A DNA stretch of 52,324 nucleotides from Longimicrobium sp. (GTDB lineage: Bacteria; Gemmatimonadota; Gemmatimonadetes; Longimicrobiales; Longimicrobiaceae), in assembly GCA_036389795.1 (NCBI GenBank), contig DASVWD010000102.1, positions 1-52,324 on the forward strand, given 5' to 3'. The position numbers and the translations under genes were made by a program. Below are positions 22,192 through 28,550 of this stretch, piece after piece (the first letter of the stretch is position 1; the number at the start of each line of letters is the position of its first letter). The notes below the pieces were generated by a model, which was given only the letters and a program-made list of their open reading frames with translations, did not search any database and was not told the DNA's origin.

Positions 22192-23229
22192 TCAATCCTG
22201 CGCGCCGAGCCAGGCGCGCACCTGCCGGGCGATGGCCTCGGCGGCGGGCGGGTCCAGGTTGGCCAGCACCACCAGGTCGTAGCCGCCGGGGAGGTCGCCG
22301 TCGAGGCTGGCGTTGATCCCGGGCGCGCCGCCGGCGATCCCGATCCCCGCCGGCGGCCCGTTGGCGATGCGCCGCTCCCGGAGCGCCTGCACGAAGCGCA
22401 GCAGGTCGCGCGCGGTGGAGTAGCCGCCCCCGGCCGCGCTCCCCCGCCCGGGAAGCGTCTCGTCGTTCCGCCGCAGCGGCCCCGTCCCCGGGGTGCCGGG
22501 GCCGCCGCGGGTGTAGCCGAGCGCGGTGTTGGGCGGGAGCGAGTCGGAGGCGTAGTGCGCGGTGCGCGCCATCCCCGCGGGCTCGTAGACGTGGCGGCGC
22601 ACGTAGTCGTAGTAGTCCTCGCCCGAGAGCCGCTCCACCAGCAGCCCCAGGACCACGTAGCCGGCGTTGGAGTAGCGGCTCTGCGTCCCCGGCTCGAACA
22701 GGAGCGGCTCGCTCGCGAAGAGGGGGAGGAAGTCGCGGTTGTGGCGGAGGTCGCCCATGGTGCCGCCCGCGGGCGGGGCGAAGATGTTGCCGCCGATCCC
22801 GGAGCGGTGCTGCAGGAGCTGGCGGACGGTCACGCGGCGGGCGACTTCGGCGTTCGGGTAGTCGGGCCAGTGGTGCGCGAGCGTGGAGTCGAGGTGGATC
22901 TTCCCCTGCGCCTCGAGCTGCCGGATGGCGATCTGCGTGAACATCTTGTTGATGGAGCCCAGGTTGAACGCGGTCTCCACGTCGTTCGCGCGCCGCCCCT
23001 CGCGGTCGGCGAGGCCGTACGCGCGCTCGAAGACGGGCGCGCCGCCGCGGGCCAGGAGCACCACGCCCGAGAAGCGGTCCTGGGCGGCCAGGGAGTCGAG
23101 CGTGGCGGACAGGCGGCGGACCAGCTCTTCCTGCGAGATCGGCGTCTGCGGCGTCTGCGGCGTCTGCGCGGCGAGCGAAGCCGCGGGCAGGAGCGCGGCG
23201 GCGAGGAGCAGCGAGGGTCGGATCGGCAT
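22192..23229 (-). CDS. Secreted serine hydrolase, beta-lactamase/PBP-like (class C fold)
   Basis: A 345-residue protein with a signal peptide (SLLLAAALLPAASLAAQ) followed by three repeats of TPQ. The nucleophile motif S-x-x-K is in FNLGSINKMFTQ (about residue 92), and the second motif Y-x-N is YSNAGYVVLG. The usual third motif (K/H-T/x-G) is not clear: the corresponding place reads IGIAGGAPGINA without His or Lys. It could be a peptidase or esterase of the serine-hydrolase/beta-lactamase family with altered specificity. It is monocistronic, leftward. Confidence 0.83.
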   Translation of the reverse strand: MPIRPSLLLAAALLPAASLAAQTPQTPQTPISQEELVRRLSATLDSLAAQDRFSGVVLLARGGAPVFERAYGLADREGRRANDVETAFNLGSINKMFTQIAIRQLEAQGKIHLDSTLAHHWPDYPNAEVARRVTVRQLLQHRSGIGGNIFAPPAGGTMGDLRHNRDFLPLFASEPLLFEPGTQSRYSNAGYVVLGLLVERLSGEDYYDYVRRHVYEPAGMARTAHYASDSLPPNTALGYTRGGPGTPGTGPLRRNDETLPGRGSAAGGGYSTARDLLRFVQALRERRIANGPPAGIGIAGGAPGINASLDGDLPGGYDLVVLANLDPPAAEAIARQVRAWLGAQD

Positions 23230-23437
23230 GAGAATCTTCAGCCTTGAGGTGGACGTTTCGGCTCACGGCCCGGTTGGAGCACGGCATTCGAGTCCACCGT
23301 TGCCCGTCCCGGCGAGCGCGCCCTCGTGCTCACGTTATCCTAATCTCACACCGCGGCGCGGTGATTGAAACGCGCCGCCAGGGCTAGACGTACGGCGGGC
23401 ACGTTCCAGCCCTCCGAACCCTGTCTCCCGCCGGCGC

Positions 23438-23983
23438 ATGACGGACCAGCCAGCCCTGCTCGTGGTGACCGGCGCATCCGGCGCGGGGAAGACCACGCTC
23501 GTGCGCGAGCTGGAGGCGCTGCGGCTCCCCGGCGTGGGGTGCTACCAGCTGGACTCGATCGGCGTCCCCTCGCCGGAGGAGATGGAGCGCCGCTGGGGCG
23601 GGCCCGGGCAGTGGCAGGCGCACGCCACGGAGTACTGGGTCGAGCGCCTCCTGCGCAACGACGACGGCGTGGAGGTGGCGGTGTTCGACGGCCAGACGCG
23701 GCCCAGCGAGGTGCGCGCCGCGCTCGAGCGCCTGGGCGTGCGCCACGCGCGCATCGTGCTGGTCGACTGCGGCCACGACGAGCGGAACGAGCGCCTGCGG
23801 GGTCCGCGCGGCCAGCCGGAGCTCGCGTGCGGGCAGATGGACTGCTGGGCCGCCTACCTCCGCGGCCAGGCCGACGCGCTGGGCCTGCCGATCGTCGACA
23901 CCGCCGGCCGCTCCGTCGGCGAGGCCGTGGCGGAGCTGGCGGCGCACGTCCGCGAGCTCGCGGCGCTGCGGCGGGGCGGCTGA
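23438..23983 (+). CDS. P-loop kinase-like protein
   Basis: A 181-residue protein. Walker A is VVTGASGAGKTTLVREL near residue 10. A Walker-B-like strand is VEVAVFDGQTRPSE, and a second strand is ARIVLVDCGHDERNERL with a lid-type Arg cluster. It resembles small AAA_33-type nucleotide or sugar kinases. The substrate is unknown, and QLDSIGVPSPEEMERRWGG may be the substrate-binding loop. It is monocistronic and convergent with thyX, sharing a terminator. Confidence 0.7.
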   Translation: MTDQPALLVVTGASGAGKTTLVRELEALRLPGVGCYQLDSIGVPSPEEMERRWGGPGQWQAHATEYWVERLLRNDDGVEVAVFDGQTRPSEVRAALERLGVRHARIVLVDCGHDERNERLRGPRGQPELACGQMDCWAAYLRGQADALGLPIVDTAGRSVGEAVAELAAHVRELAALRRGG

Positions 23984-23993
23984 CTGAAGACGA

Positions 23994-24023
23994 AGGAGCG
24001 GAAGGCCGGCGCCCTCCGCTCCT
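23994..24023. terminator. Bidirectional terminator hairpin
   Basis: A 9-bp stem AGGAGCGGA / TCCGCTCCT with a 12-nt loop lies between the convergent P-loop kinase and thyX stops. Confidence 0.6.
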
Positions 24024-24049
24024 CTCCGTGCATCAGCCTTCCACCGCCG

Positions 24050-25918
24050 TCAGACCTTGCTGTGCGGCGTCTCGACCACGGGGATGCCGTCTTCGTGCTC
24101 GACGGCCTGCATGTCGCCGAAGATGTGCGGCGCCTCTTCGCGGAGCTGGCGCAGCACCTCCACGGCCAGGCGGCGGATCTCCACCTCGGCGGTGGGGCTG
24201 CCGCGCATCTCACAGAAGTGCCGCCACGCGCGCGCGTTGCCCGTCACCACGATCTTGGTCTCGGCGCAGTTGGGGAGCACCGCGCGCGCCGCCTGCCGTG
24301 CCCGCTTCTTCCGCATGGTGGCGGTGCCGCTCTCGCCCACCCTGTCCGTCACGCCCGCGAGCAGCGCCCGGTACGCCTCCAGCGACTGCTCGCACGCCCG
24401 CCGCCATGCCTCGAACGCCTCGCTCCCCTCCTCGATCTCCGGCGGCAGCACGAAGCCGATCTCCGATTCGTCGACGTAGCGCTGCGACAACTGCGAGTTG
24501 TGCGTGACAATCCCGTTGGCGACAAAGTTGTGGTTCGGCCCTTCCATCTCCAGGTCGTAGGTCATCTGCTCGCCCACGTACGTGACGCTCGCGATCCGTG
24601 CCGGACGGGCGACGAGAACGTTGCCGCGTCCGCGTGGCGGGCGGGCGTTCGATGGGATCTCGCTGAGTGACCGGTCGAAGCGTTCTACGTATTCGAGTTC
24701 GCGCCCGTTCAACGTCAGGTGACAGGAATGGCACACGGTTACCACGTTCGTCTCGTCGTCGGCAAGGTCCGGCCGGGCCCACACCGGGAGAACATGGTGG
24801 AGCGTCAGCGTGCCTCCGCGCTCGCCGCAACGCCGGCAGGTATGCCGATCACGCTCGTAGATTTCCTCCCGTCGATCCATCAAAGGCTTGCGTAAGACCA
24901 GTCCCTGCGGAGTGATTCCCCCCTTCCACTGCGGGTTGGCCTCACCGGTCTTCTGAGCCGAGAGGCGGGCGCGAGTTTCGGGCGTGTGCCTCCATCCGGC
25001 ATGGTAGCGCTTGCCGCGGTTCCACGGGCTCCGACCCACGGTCCACGATCCGACCGGCTTCTGCAAACCGTGCTTCCGGATCCACGCACGGATCGTGTGT
25101 GGAGATACACCCGCAAGCTGTGCGATCGTGCTCTGGTCGAGGTTGCGGTCGTGGTAGTGAAGCTTCAGCCAGTCCCGGTCTTTGTAGGCCGCAAGGCCGT
25201 TGACCATGATCTCGGCGCCTGAGCGCCCGTACGTCGCCAGCCCTCCCGGCGAGACGGCGAGCCCGCCGACGATCTCGTCCAGCGGCTTCCATCCGTTCGC
25301 GGTGAGGAATCGGTGATCTTTCGAACAGGTGATCGATTTCCCATCCTCGAGCTCAACGCGGAAAACCGGCTTCGCCCCGGACTGGACGACGGCGCGCACC
25401 CGCCCCGTAGTAAACGTCCCGCTCACCACGTCAAGGCAGCGCAGGCGTAGCAGCTTCAGACGGGAGCGTCCATGCGGCGTCTGCGTCATCTCGAACAGGC
25501 GCTGGATCGAACGCTTCTTGGTTCCATTCGGCTTTCCACGCTGGCGGTGCTCGCTGTAGACCCGCGTGTCTCCCGTCAAGCAGTATCCCATGCCGGCCCG
25601 GTGCCGCACCAGCTCGTGGGTGAGCGAGCGGCTGACGCCCTCGAAGAGAAAGGTCCACACCGCGTGCTCCAGCACGGAGCCGTGCTTGGTGTGGAGGATG
25701 TTGTGCAGGTAGGCCTCGTTCGTCGTGCGCCCCGGGATCGTCTTGTGCCCGCCTTCCAGCCCCGCATCGGCCCCGAAGCTCAGGTAGCACAGCCGTCCCG
25801 CGAACTCCGCCAGCGCCTCGCCGGCCACCTGGCTGTCGCTCTGCCAGCGGATGTGCGGCGGCACGGTGAACTGCTGGCGGGCGATGACGGTGACGCGGGG
25901 CTGGCGGATGATCTGCAT
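24050..25918 (-). CDS. thyX: Flavin-dependent thymidylate synthase ThyX containing an intein
   Basis: One 622-codon frame. Residues 1-112 are the ThyX N-terminal half, ending in the active-site helix SLTHELVRHRAGMGY. Residues 113-474 are an intein. Residues 475-622 are the C-terminal half, starting SQLSQRYVDES and containing ARAVLPNCAETKIVVTGNARAW. Removing the insert rejoins the signature as RHRAGMGYSQLSQRY, so splicing would give a normal-length 260-residue enzyme. ThyX makes dTMP from dUMP with methylenetetrahydrofolate, FAD and NADPH. No stop or frameshift interrupts the frame. The start ATG is weakly preceded by GGAG. Confidence 0.95.
   Translation of the reverse strand: MQIIRQPRVTVIARQQFTVPPHIRWQSDSQVAGEALAEFAGRLCYLSFGADAGLEGGHKTIPGRTTNEAYLHNILHTKHGSVLEHAVWTFLFEGVSRSLTHELVRHRAGMGYCLTGDTRVYSEHRQRGKPNGTKKRSIQRLFEMTQTPHGRSRLKLLRLRCLDVVSGTFTTGRVRAVVQSGAKPVFRVELEDGKSITCSKDHRFLTANGWKPLDEIVGGLAVSPGGLATYGRSGAEIMVNGLAAYKDRDWLKLHYHDRNLDQSTIAQLAGVSPHTIRAWIRKHGLQKPVGSWTVGRSPWNRGKRYHAGWRHTPETRARLSAQKTGEANPQWKGGITPQGLVLRKPLMDRREEIYERDRHTCRRCGERGGTLTLHHVLPVWARPDLADDETNVVTVCHSCHLTLNGRELEYVERFDRSLSEIPSNARPPRGRGNVLVARPARIASVTYVGEQMTYDLEMEGPNHNFVANGIVTHNSQLSQRYVDESEIGFVLPPEIEEGSEAFEAWRRACEQSLEAYRALLAGVTDRVGESGTATMRKKRARQAARAVLPNCAETKIVVTGNARAWRHFCEMRGSPTAEVEIRRLAVEVLRQLREEAPHIFGDMQAVEHEDGIPVVETPHSKV
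24497..25582 (-). mobile_element. Intein with HTH-NUMOD3-HNH homing endonuclease in ThyX
   Basis: 362 residues. It starts at Cys1 (CLTGDTRVYSEH, block A); block B is ITCSKDHRFLT (Ser-x-x-His form); the splice end is YDLEMEGPNHNFVANGIV then THN, followed by extein Ser. Inserted between blocks are a helix-turn-helix (about 149-172, STIAQLAGVSPHTIRAWIRK), a NUMOD3-type motif (about 187-222, HTPETRARLSAQKTGEANP) and an HNH nuclease (about 249-288: CRRCGERGG, LHHVLPVW, VCHSCH). All key splicing residues and nuclease Cys/His are present, so it may be active for both splicing and homing. Its codon use is less GC-biased than the exteins. Confidence 0.93.
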
Positions 25919-26083
25919 CGGGGGCGCTCCGGAGGTGGGGGTCGGCCGGCGGCGAAAACGTAGACGCCGGCCCCCCGGGCGGCAAGGCGAAGGGAACCCG
26001 GCCGAACGCATGCGGCGGACGGCGCCCCCTTCCGCCTCTACAGCCGAGGTTGCTCCGGCGCGGCGCGGGGTTAGCTTTCGCGC

Positions 26084-26992
26084 ATGCGCATCGCCTCCCT
26101 CCTGTCCAGCGCCACGGAGATCGTCTACGAGCTGGGGCTCGAGGACCGCCTGGTGGCCATCTCGCACGAGTGCGACTGGCCGCCCGAGGCGCTCCGGCTG
26201 CCGCGGCTCTCCCGCTCGCGCTTCGACCCGGCGGGGCTCACCAGCGGCGAGATCGACGCCGAGGTGCGCCGCTGCATGGCCGAGCACGGCAGCGTCTACC
26301 AGGTGGACGTGGACGCGCTGCGCGAGGCGCGGCCGGACCTGATCCTCACCCAGGCCGTCTGCGAGGTGTGCGCCGTCCCCACCGGCTCGGTGAACGAGGC
26401 GGTCGCCGCGCTGCCGTTCCAGCCGCGGGTGCTCTCCCTCGACTCGCACACGCTGGAAGAGATCCTGGAGTCGCTGCGGCAGGTGGCGGACGCGGCGGGC
26501 GAGCCGGAGCGGGGCGGGGAGACGGCCGCGCGGTTGCGCGGAAGGATCGACCGCGTGCGCCGGGCGGTGGCCGGGAGGCCGCGGCCGCGGGTGCTGGCGC
26601 TGGAGTGGCTGGACCCGCCGTTCGCGCCGGGGCACTGGATCCCGGAGATGATCGAGCTGGCGGGCGGACGGAGCCTGATCGGCAGGACGGGCGGGCACTC
26701 GGTGGAGGTCCCGTGGGAGGAGGTGGAGGGGCTCGACCCGGACTTCCTCCTGCTGGTGCCCTGCGGCTACGACCTGGACCACGCCCGCGACGACGCCGCG
26801 CGCGCCCGCGCCCGCCTGCACGCGCTCGCCCCGCGCGCCGTCCGCGAGGGCCGCGCGGCGATCGGCCACAGCGCGTACTTCAGCCGCTCCGGCCCGCGCG
26901 TGGTCGCCGGGATCGAGGCGCTCGCCGCCGCGCTGCACCCGGACGCGCTCGACGGCGGAGCGGCGGAAGGCATCGTCGAGCGCTGGAGCTGA
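26084..26992 (+). CDS. Cobalamin-binding protein, BtuF-like
   Basis: A 302-residue protein of the class III periplasmic-binding fold: MRIASLLSSATEIVYELGL, VAISHECDWPPEAL, the long linker helix TLEEILESLRQVADAAGE, and GHWIPEMIELAGGRSLIG. No signal peptide is visible at the chosen ATG, so it may be cytoplasmic, as in many such annotated cobalamin-binding proteins. No permease or ATPase genes are adjacent and no cobalamin riboswitch was found in the 165-bp spacer shared with thyX. A one-armed heptamer array follows the gene. Confidence 0.82.
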   Translation: MRIASLLSSATEIVYELGLEDRLVAISHECDWPPEALRLPRLSRSRFDPAGLTSGEIDAEVRRCMAEHGSVYQVDVDALREARPDLILTQAVCEVCAVPTGSVNEAVAALPFQPRVLSLDSHTLEEILESLRQVADAAGEPERGGETAARLRGRIDRVRRAVAGRPRPRVLALEWLDPPFAPGHWIPEMIELAGGRSLIGRTGGHSVEVPWEEVEGLDPDFLLLVPCGYDLDHARDDAARARARLHALAPRAVREGRAAIGHSAYFSRSGPRVVAGIEALAAALHPDALDGGAAEGIVERWS

Positions 26993-27017
26993 GAGGCCGC
27001 GGCGGCGCCGCCCCGAG

Positions 27018-27079
27018 ACCGTACTCCGTACCTCGTACCCCGTACTCTCGCACTCCCGCACTCCGCACTCTCGCACTGT
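27018..27079. repeat. CGTACTC / CGCACTC heptamer array
   Basis: About eight units in one arm. The first half uses the TAC form (CCGTACTC, CTCGTACC) and the second half the CAC form (TCGCACTC, CCGCACT). It lies between the cobalamin-binding and SPW-protein genes. Confidence 0.75.
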
Positions 27080-27139
27080 CCTTGCAATCGCGACGCGCGT
27101 CCGGACGAAAACGCGCGTACCGCAACGGAGATGAAGAGC

Positions 27140-27502
27140 ATGCGGCTTCCCACCCGCACTCACGGCATCCTGGACTACACGGTGGGGGCGCTCATGATCG
27201 CGCTCCCCTTCCTCCTGGGGTTCGGCGGCGGGGCGCAGACGTGGATCTTCGTGGTCCTGGGCGCCGCGGCGCTGGTCTACAGCTTCTTCACCGACTACGA
27301 GCTGGGCGTGGTGAAGCGGCTGCAGATGCCCTATCACCTCTGGCTCGACGGGCTCTCGGGCGTGCTGCTGGCCGTCTCGCCCTGGGCGCTCGGCTTCGAC
27401 ACCGAGGTGTGGGTGCCGCACGTGGTCGTGGGCGCCTTCGAGATCGCCGCCGCGGTGGTCACCGACACCATCCCCGCCTATGACCGACGCCGCGCAGGCT
27501 AA
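27140..27502 (+). CDS. SPW-motif integral membrane protein
   Basis: About 120 residues with four hydrophobic helices (YTVGALMIALPFLLGF; WIFVVLGAAALVYSFF; LWLDGLSGVLLAVSPWALGF; VVVGAFEIAAAVV). The SPWALGF sequence is the SPW motif. The second ATG (MRLPTRTHG) is chosen because GGAG lies 9 bp before it; the ATG 9 bp upstream touches its own GGAG. The function of the family is unknown. Its 3' end overlaps corA by 23 bp. Confidence 0.72.
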   Translation: MRLPTRTHGILDYTVGALMIALPFLLGFGGGAQTWIFVVLGAAALVYSFFTDYELGVVKRLQMPYHLWLDGLSGVLLAVSPWALGFDTEVWVPHVVVGAFEIAAAVVTDTIPAYDRRRAG

Positions 27503-28550
27503 CGACCTCCTCCTGGCGCAGGGCGAGCTCACCGACGCCGCGGTCCCCGAGCCGCGCGCCCGCGTCCAGGCCTACGCCGAGACCGCCACCGGCGTCCACG
27601 CCATCCCGCTGGACGACGCGCTCGAGCGCTTCGAGCGCTGCCGGCAGGCGCGCTCGGCCGACGAGACGGACATCCCGATCGTGTGGATCGACGTGGCCTC
27701 GCCCGGCGAGGCCGAGGCCGTCTTCCTCCGCGAGCGGCTGCACTTCCACCCGCTGGCGGTGGAGGACTGCATCAGCGGGCGGCAGCGGCCCAAGCTGGAC
27801 CGCTACCCGGGCTACTACTTCATGGTGATGTACGCGGCGGCCATCAACCGCGAGCGGAACCGCATGGCGCTGCACGAGGTGCACATGTTCCTCGGGCGCC
27901 GCTACATCGTCACCGTGCACGACCACAAGATCGGCGAGCTGGGCGAGGTGCTGGCGCGCTGGCGGGCCGCCCCGGCCAGCTACCGCAGCGTGGGCCCGCT
28001 GGCGCACGCGCTGATCGACGCCATCGTCGACGACTACTTCCCGATCCTGGACCACTTCGCCGAGCGGGTGGAGGAGGCGGAGCTGGACGTGTTCCGCCAA
28101 GACAAGACCGCGGAGCTGGACCAGATCCTGGCGATCCGGCGCGAGCTGACGCTCTTCCGCAAGGTGGTGGGCCCCGAGCGCGACCTGCTCTCCACCATGC
28201 TGCGGCGCGACCTGCCCTTCCTGAGCCCGGAGCTCACCCTCTACTTCCAGGACGTGCACGACCACTCCATGCGCGTGGTGGAGGAGCTCGACACGCTGCG
28301 CGACCTGCTTTCCGCCGCCATGGAGGGGCAGCTCTCCATCGCCTCGAACCAGCTCAACATCACCATGCGGCTGATGGCGGCGTGGTCGATCATCCTGATG
28401 GCGATGGCCTGGATCGCCGGCATCTACGGGATGAACTTCCGCCACATGCCGGAGCTGGAGTGGCGGGCGGGCTACCCGTGGGCCCTGGGGCTGATGCTGG
28501 TGGTGGGGACCGTCCTCGTCTTCTACTTCCGCCGCAAGCGCTGGCTCTGA
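27480..28550 (+). CDS. corA: CorA family divalent-metal transporter
   Basis: A 356-residue protein with a long cytoplasmic N-domain (PIVWIDVASPGEAEAV, LAVEDCISGRQRPKLDRYPGY) and the stalk helix. Two C-terminal helices carry the selectivity motif YGMNFRHMPEL between them (about residue 318). It should import Mg2+ or another divalent ion as a pentamer in the inner membrane. The start overlaps the SPW gene by 23 bp, so the two are translationally coupled. Confidence 0.93.
   Translation: MTDAAQANDLLLAQGELTDAAVPEPRARVQAYAETATGVHAIPLDDALERFERCRQARSADETDIPIVWIDVASPGEAEAVFLRERLHFHPLAVEDCISGRQRPKLDRYPGYYFMVMYAAAINRERNRMALHEVHMFLGRRYIVTVHDHKIGELGEVLARWRAAPASYRSVGPLAHALIDAIVDDYFPILDHFAERVEEAELDVFRQDKTAELDQILAIRRELTLFRKVVGPERDLLSTMLRRDLPFLSPELTLYFQDVHDHSMRVVEELDTLRDLLSAAMEGQLSIASNQLNITMRLMAAWSIILMAMAWIAGIYGMNFRHMPELEWRAGYPWALGLMLVVGTVLVFYFRRKRWL

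Follow-up and report, generated by a model that had tools for sequence, protein, structure and literature searches.

The thyX gene of a Longimicrobium genome (Longimicrobiaceae, Gemmatimonadota; contig DASVWD010000102.1) is interrupted within its active-site motif by a long in-frame insertion. The gene lies in a window of 52,324 nucleotides, which is the whole stretch of DNA analysed, and it raises the questions of whether the insertion is an intein able to splice and to home, how it reached this gene, and what such elements have left behind in the thyX alleles of related genomes. We are highly confident that it is a functional-looking mobile intein in ThyX with a helix-turn-helix (HTH)-NUMOD3-HNH homing endonuclease, for which splicing and homing are predicted from sequence.

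An earlier note on this DNA had placed a 362-residue insert between GMGY and SQLSQRY, and these limits are exact to the base (Table 1). The insert fills 362 codons of the minus strand without a stop, so the frame, whose integrity the note had wanted checked, is unbroken. The ThyX models TIGR02170 and PF02511 match above their cut-offs, with the RHR-X-S motif, on both sides of it, and its identification as a ThyX intein stands. The most likely start of thyX is the ATG at 25918, and a 1160-residue open reading frame (window positions 24050-27532), a high-GC open frame, runs upstream of the gene across genes on the opposite strand. There is a single copy of thyX in this genome (G000) and no ThyA match was found in it; a ThyA search of six genomes gave a match in G005 only. 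As had been proposed, the intein sits in a chromosomal thyX, and no phage or mobile genes were found among the five neighbours annotated at positions 22192-28550.

Table 1. Features of the interrupted thyX gene and its neighbourhood (window positions).
Feature	Positions	Strand	Remarks
thyX precursor gene	24050-25918	-	622 aa with intein, 260 aa spliced; TIGR02170 139 bits vs cut-off 87.9
N-extein, 112 residues	25583-25918	-	C-terminal end LVRHRAGMGY
Intein, 362 residues	24497-25582	-	CLTGDT...GIVTHN
Splicing domain, N-terminal part (residues 1-132)	25187-25582	-	Cys1, His90; boundary from the G157 mini-intein, which is without residues ~133-293
Homing endonuclease region (residues 133-293)	24704-25186	-	
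HTH segment (residues 133-178)	25049-25186	-	sub-cut-off MerR/HTH matches; modelled helices 136-145, 150-157, 161-170
NUMOD3 motif (residues 196-217)	24932-24997	-	Pfam NUMOD3 E 5.8e-4, 20.2 bits vs cut-off 20.4
HNH nuclease (residues 237-293)	24704-24874	-	C249, C252, H262, H263, N279, C284, C287, H288; Pfam HNH above cut-off
Splicing domain, C-terminal part (residues 294-362)	24497-24703	-	His361-Asn362
C-extein	24050-24496	-	SQLSQRY to stop codon
beta-lactamase family gene	22192-23229	-	
AAA kinase-like gene	23438-23983	+	
periplasmic binding protein gene	26084-26992	+	
SPW repeat gene	27131-27502	+	
CorA gene	27480-28550	+	

All the splicing landmarks named in the earlier note are present, and they are the residues of a class 1 intein: Cys at position 1, a block-B His (His90), a C-terminal His-Asn (His361-Asn362) and Ser at +1. 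Three intein profiles score above their cut-offs (TIGR01445 intein_Nterm, 31.6 bits vs 24.5; TIGR01443 intein_Cterm, 27.2 vs 15.6; Pfam Intein_splicing, 46.1 vs 35.8). Conservation at the junctions also held: across 19 aligned inteins (ours among them) Cys1, His361 and Asn362 never vary and His90 hardly does. The block-B Thr, kept in both congeneric inteins, is conservatively replaced by Ser (SKDH) in this one. A structure model built from the 19-intein alignment (an earlier three-sequence fold with a pLDDT of 50 was discarded) has a mean pLDDT of 76, with 87-96 in most blocks of the splicing part; the endonuclease part is modelled less confidently, with means of 45-50 in blocks 181-200 and 211-230. 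Compared with the PDB, the model gave 36 matches at E ≤ 0.001, the best of them inteins, which identifies the HINT fold; it resembles the Ssp DnaB mini-intein (6frg, E 4.7e-8) and the Mtu RecA intein (2imz_B, TM 0.87 of target).

The HINT domain would excise itself after translation: Cys1 would act as the N-terminal nucleophile and Ser+1 of the C-extein as acceptor, His90 and His361 would assist, and Asn362 would cyclise, so that the halves of ThyX would be joined inside the RHR-X-S active-site loop. This splicing chemistry is inferred, and so are cleavage, homing and the explanation given below for the rare codons. Because no ThyA was detected in the genome, splicing is probably required for thymidylate synthesis in this bacterium. 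The intein looks ordinary in kind and very probably works; that it is a decayed, non-splicing relic is very improbable, given its stop-free frame, intact splice residues and dN/dS of ~0.2 in both parts, and given that ThyX is the only thymidylate synthase found in the genome.

The HTH-NUMOD3-HNH layout proposed earlier stands, with only its HNH part above the profile cut-off (Pfam HNH, 30.2 bits vs 21.4); the HTH, a MerR-type match at E 2e-4, and the putative NUMOD3 motif score below theirs, the latter by 0.2 bits. The HNH-region residues listed in Table 1, which include the metal-binding Cys and the catalytic His and Asn, are invariant in alignments of five and of three inteins, and C252, H263, N279 and H288 are nearly invariant in the alignment of 19 that includes this one. 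HNH was matched in 15 of these 19 inteins and NUMOD3 in three, this one among them; no NUMOD3 match was found in the seven inteins of the set from families f2 and f3. The inteins of G023 (L038) and G337 (L134) keep HNH and lack the NUMOD3 stretch, and are possible steps in endonuclease decay. The endonuclease is under purifying selection with a constraint much like that of the splicing part: comparing G000 with its congener G004 and with G005 (NG86, dS near saturation), dN/dS is 0.16-0.21 in the endonuclease and 0.18-0.23 in the splicing part. The HTH-NUMOD3-HNH part is predicted to recognise the uninterrupted codons of the loop and to drive copying of the intein into empty thyX by break repair. 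In NUMOD/HNH homing endonucleases such as I-HmuI, an HNH nuclease is likewise accompanied by HTH and NUMOD modules; those enzymes are encoded by introns, whereas here the candidate modules sit inside a protein-splicing element.

ThyX inteins have been published from Streptomyces, mycobacteriophages and Trichodesmium (PMC5050341, PMC3620165), and Gemmatimonadota is here added to the range found in print. The earlier note had them mainly in phages, which does not hold, as section 11 of PMC5050341 describes them as widespread in Streptomyces too. The mycobacteriophage and Streptomyces ThyX (TdS) inteins of that paper share with ours the host protein and the RHR loop, and their transfer was likewise read from tree conflict. 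In the mycobacteriophage inteins Norm, Colt and StAugustine (L094-L096), the HNH part matches 33-35% of our intein at 34-42% identity. Their insertion point precedes S-Y-N-E-E-S and lies five residues ahead of the S of S-x-R-Y, whereas ours lies three ahead of it, and they are without the HTH-NUMOD3 stretch that ours has, as seen on L230, which is near-identical to Norm's. Closer in position is the intein of the Methanomassiliicoccales virus vir335 (BK063680.1), which has the same insertion point (RHRxxxY/SQxSQRY) and an HTH and HNH like ours, but is 247 residues long, without the NUMOD3 stretch and 32% identical. The intein of an Omnitrophota MAG (JAUYPJ010000046.1, L128) gives a full-length match with HTH and HNH and a closely similar HTH stretch, but reaches 31% identity (best segment) and is inserted four residues before the S (SEQVSQRF). 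The Trichodesmium Ter intein, likewise in ThyX, splices at ~100% in E. coli in its mini form (PMC3620165).

Viral contigs scanned with the plain intein protein gave no relative, nor did a plasmid scan. A viral-contig scan with the intein alignment yielded 48 loci, all of which were searched for junctions and 16 of which were taken as ThyX inteins; two further loci, L221 (the twin of L220) and the fragment L233, are also ThyX. A second scan with the f3 alignment yielded 13 loci, matching around the HNH part only. Insertion lies five residues before the S of S-x-R-Y in f2, f3, f7, the mycobacteriophages and 2 of the 16 virus contigs, three before in our own group, vir335 and four contigs, four before in the Omnitrophota genome only, and at the S itself in the other ten (within L215-L238). 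These positions need five changes on a tree of 32 inteins, and the "three before" set was rejected as a single group (AU p 2e-5, with a long branch present). The insertion point of related ThyX inteins appears to have shifted between neighbouring positions in a single active-site loop; ThyX sites a and c had already been labelled (PMC5050341).

Within the order, thyX was found in 111 of 117 genomes and 24 of the 111 carry an intein: nine are full (345-384 residues; G000, G004, G005, G023, G046, G058, G070, G092, and G116) and 15 are mini-inteins (189-229 residues). The remaining alleles were scored empty from the span of the match, except that of G045, which has a gap at the site; a split intein in this one-contig genome, suggested by its holding the N half of thyX only, was rejected owing to a run of N after ARQWIR (L138, C1:534000-541000). 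One order thus holds empty, endonuclease-bearing and endonuclease-less alleles, making the homing cycle traceable in related genomes. Intein-free alleles do occur in close relatives, a point on which the earlier note had staked its reading: three of the nine thyX-bearing genomes of the own genus are filled and six are empty (3/19 filled in the own family, f1), and filled and empty alleles can be close in their exteins (G005/G006, 94.9% identity; G157/G199, 94.5%).

Across 395 genomes of the phylum, the intein query matched 79, of which 29 did so through ThyX inteins. Six of these lie outside the first set (G157, G241, G324, G337, G358, and G396), the inteins of G241 and G337 being truncated by a contig end and that of G324 split over two contigs. 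The other 50 genomes matched more weakly (best E 2.2e-9), and those identified among them were DnaB and DnaE inteins only. In G189, G243, G275, G351, and others, from other families, thyX matches are multiple or only weak, and these genes may hold further inserts.

How the intein travelled is best seen from G157, a genome of another order in the same class, which carries a 201-residue ThyX intein without endonuclease at the same insertion point. The inteins of G000 and G157 are 63.6% identical (126/198 columns) and their exteins 48.7% (127/261), and an intein identity exceeding that of the exteins argues for horizontal movement. In the extein tree two thyX groups are separated by branches with 100/100 support and G157 falls among empty congeners; in the intein tree G000, G004, G005, and G157 cluster at 100/99. 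As judged from these comparisons, such inteins evidently moved horizontally between distant thyX genes and lost their endonuclease to leave mini-inteins. Vertical inheritance, in which an ancestral Gemmatimonadota thyX was filled and most lineages lost the intein with no transfer needed, would explain why g18 and g12 mini-inteins keep largely to their own genus in the intein tree, and why intein and extein identities match within the own genus (G000-G004, 74.6% vs 75.5%), where descent with losses fits as well as recent homing. Between families it is disfavoured, and we regard it as improbable overall: it does not account for the excess identity of the G000 and G157 inteins, for the nesting of G157 among empty congeners, or for the occupation of this loop by inteins in virus contigs, an archaeal virus and an Omnitrophota genome, and decay of the endonuclease should be far commoner than exact loss of the intein (PMC3229294).

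GC3 is 0.79 in this intein and 0.956 in its own exteins, whereas that of the two congeneric inteins matches their hosts (0.91 vs 0.92 and 0.90 vs 0.89), so the window's copy looks like a younger arrival than those of its congeners. A recent arrival of this copy is accordingly favoured, though not by the own-genus identities.

A further trace of homing may lie in the empty alleles, at whose insertion point we noticed the rare codons AGA, AGT, CTA, and TCA. As the pattern in thyX was found by inspection, its p-values are exploratory. Synonymous codons were shuffled within each gene, taking six codons each side of the site (G045, G117, and G057 were not included, and g79 and g13, the latter represented by G023 only, were excluded from both carrier and control groups). 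Empty alleles in carrier genera were low in 12 of 18 cases at p < 0.05 (own genus 4/6, f3 8/12), compared with 11 of 108 elsewhere (other f3 2/47, f5 4/34, f4 0/5, other f1 2/10, f2 2/10, and f6 and f9 1/2). An analytic version (z < -1.645) gave 13/18 vs 12/108 in other genera, and 31/558 for other spans of the same carrier genes. At genus level, five carrier genera differ from 65 others (Mann-Whitney p 7.7e-5), and spans of 4-10 codons or GC3 alone give genus-level p of 2e-5 to 4e-3. The number of independent events is smaller than 18, since some of these alleles are related or identical: G030, G038, G069, and G109 form one group, and the proteins of G028 and G087 are identical. Among the 18, G009 and G081 clearly lack recoding, and G008, G028, and G087 do not reach the threshold. 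None of the three empty alleles of g79 is recoded either (z 0.07, -0.82, and -0.62); in that genus the carrier is G157, and its mini-intein has no endonuclease.

When each gene was scanned blind, half of the carrier-genus empties (9/18, with 1.5 expected) had their lowest span no more than six codons from the site, as did 8/108 of the other empties (8.4 expected); the patch spans roughly codons -6 to +8 (~12-14 codons). In carrier genera, close pairs show more synonymous divergence at the site than elsewhere in the gene (81/226 vs 660/2560), which is not so in other f3 (125/266 vs 1259/2807) or f5/f4 (98/222 vs 924/2292). Within carrier genera the excess is seen in pairs with an empty allele (62/134 vs 452/1503) and is absent where both alleles are filled (19/92 vs 208/1057); pairwise sign tests of this divergence were not significant (13/20 and 9/12).

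We applied the same statistic to intein sites in two other genes. The DnaB test was planned after that on thyX and its prediction was not recorded beforehand. In the own family, DnaB inteins follow GK/T (first site) and LRE/S (second site), the slash marking the insertion; within the own genus the first is found in 8 of 10 genomes, the own genome included (L306-L316), and the second in G004-G007 and G009. At the first site all carrier-genus empties are strongly recoded (G001 -4.50, G009 -6.19, and G020 -6.45), whereas the rest of the family's empties (0/6) are not and those of other families seldom are (2/31); filled alleles were recoded in 5 of 10. With a shorter stretch of DnaB, G012 scores -1.91 and 4/31 controls fall below -1.645; with the longer one used here the values are -1.51 and 2/31. 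In dnaB of G001, G009, and G020, the four lowest spans all lie at the first site or 162-168 codons on, at the second. The second site itself, for which the controls come from f1 only and none from f2/f3, does not separate the groups (3/4 carrier-genus empties, 4/9 empties of f1 genera without that intein, 2/5 filled; Fisher p 0.56).

For DnaE the prediction was recorded before the test, in which G028 was unread and G007, G010, and G013 lay outside the sample. The intein is found at FGRYGFNK/S in G001, G004, G005, and G006 (L357, L361, L367, and L382). Two of five carrier-genus empties are recoded (G002 -6.86, the gene's lowest span, and G003 -3.59), against 1/9 and 2/20 controls (Fisher p 0.15). 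Genera g63 and g96 carry a second DnaE paralogue (L334-L337), whose PF07733 match is interrupted near 167-182 by ~500-540 bases. Pooled over DnaB and DnaE, 8/12 compares with 9/75 (Fisher p 1.3e-4, uncorrected for kinship and with genomes reused across sites).

The codon patch suggests homing-endonuclease pressure on empty alleles, which could act through selection for uncut sites or through mutagenic repair after cutting. We consider it quite possible, though a little short of an even chance, that hosts become resistant to inteins by recoding the homing site synonymously in thyX, dnaB, and dnaE, with no change to the protein. Among the open-access papers listed in searches on the subject, none reports this, judging by title and abstract opening. 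Such resistance is not a given: at mcm, resistance arises via a proline at +1, and a target that differs at several, mostly synonymous, positions is still recognised (PMC10643990).

Filled alleles show part of the signal, which speaks for a second reading, in which the rare codons would be scars left by earlier occupation, or by short gene-conversion tracts with foreign flanks, and not resistance. In thyX 15 of 27 filled alleles have z < -1.645 (full 5/10, mini 10/17), with G000, G004, and G005 all significant, and recoded filled alleles recur at both DnaB sites and at DnaE (1/4; G004 -2.42). Several genomes share almost the same C-flank at the filled first site of DnaB, a likeness that co-conversion would produce. 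With the filled alleles of both DnaB and DnaE taken into account, we gave resistance less weight and scars more. Against scars, a dip of ~12-14 codons is short for a conversion tract, the excess synonymous divergence appears in pairs with an empty allele and not in filled-filled pairs, and the site is the blind-scan minimum in half of the carrier-genus empties but in 0/7 full alleles of f2/f3, 1/3 full alleles of f1 and 3/17 mini alleles. We judge this reading unlikely, if still to be taken seriously.

Many filled alleles with rare codons, DnaE of G004 among them, would also be expected if such codons slowed translation for intein folding and empty alleles retained them after intein loss. This is distinctly improbable, as full-length filled alleles in f3 are weaker than empties (mean z -1.56 vs -2.63), although the three full alleles of f1 average -3.84, and the filled DnaE alleles of G005 and G006 are without rare codons (0.98 and 1.05).

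Recoding as resistance, if true, would be nature's parallel to gene-drive resistance and could be recognised by codon usage alone; the old question of host escape from homing would become testable, and active homing sites could be found from sequence alone. At DnaE, the empty alleles of G000 and G008 differ in amino acids next to the insertion point (SHSVAY; an R in place of K in G008), and such changes could offer a further route of resistance.
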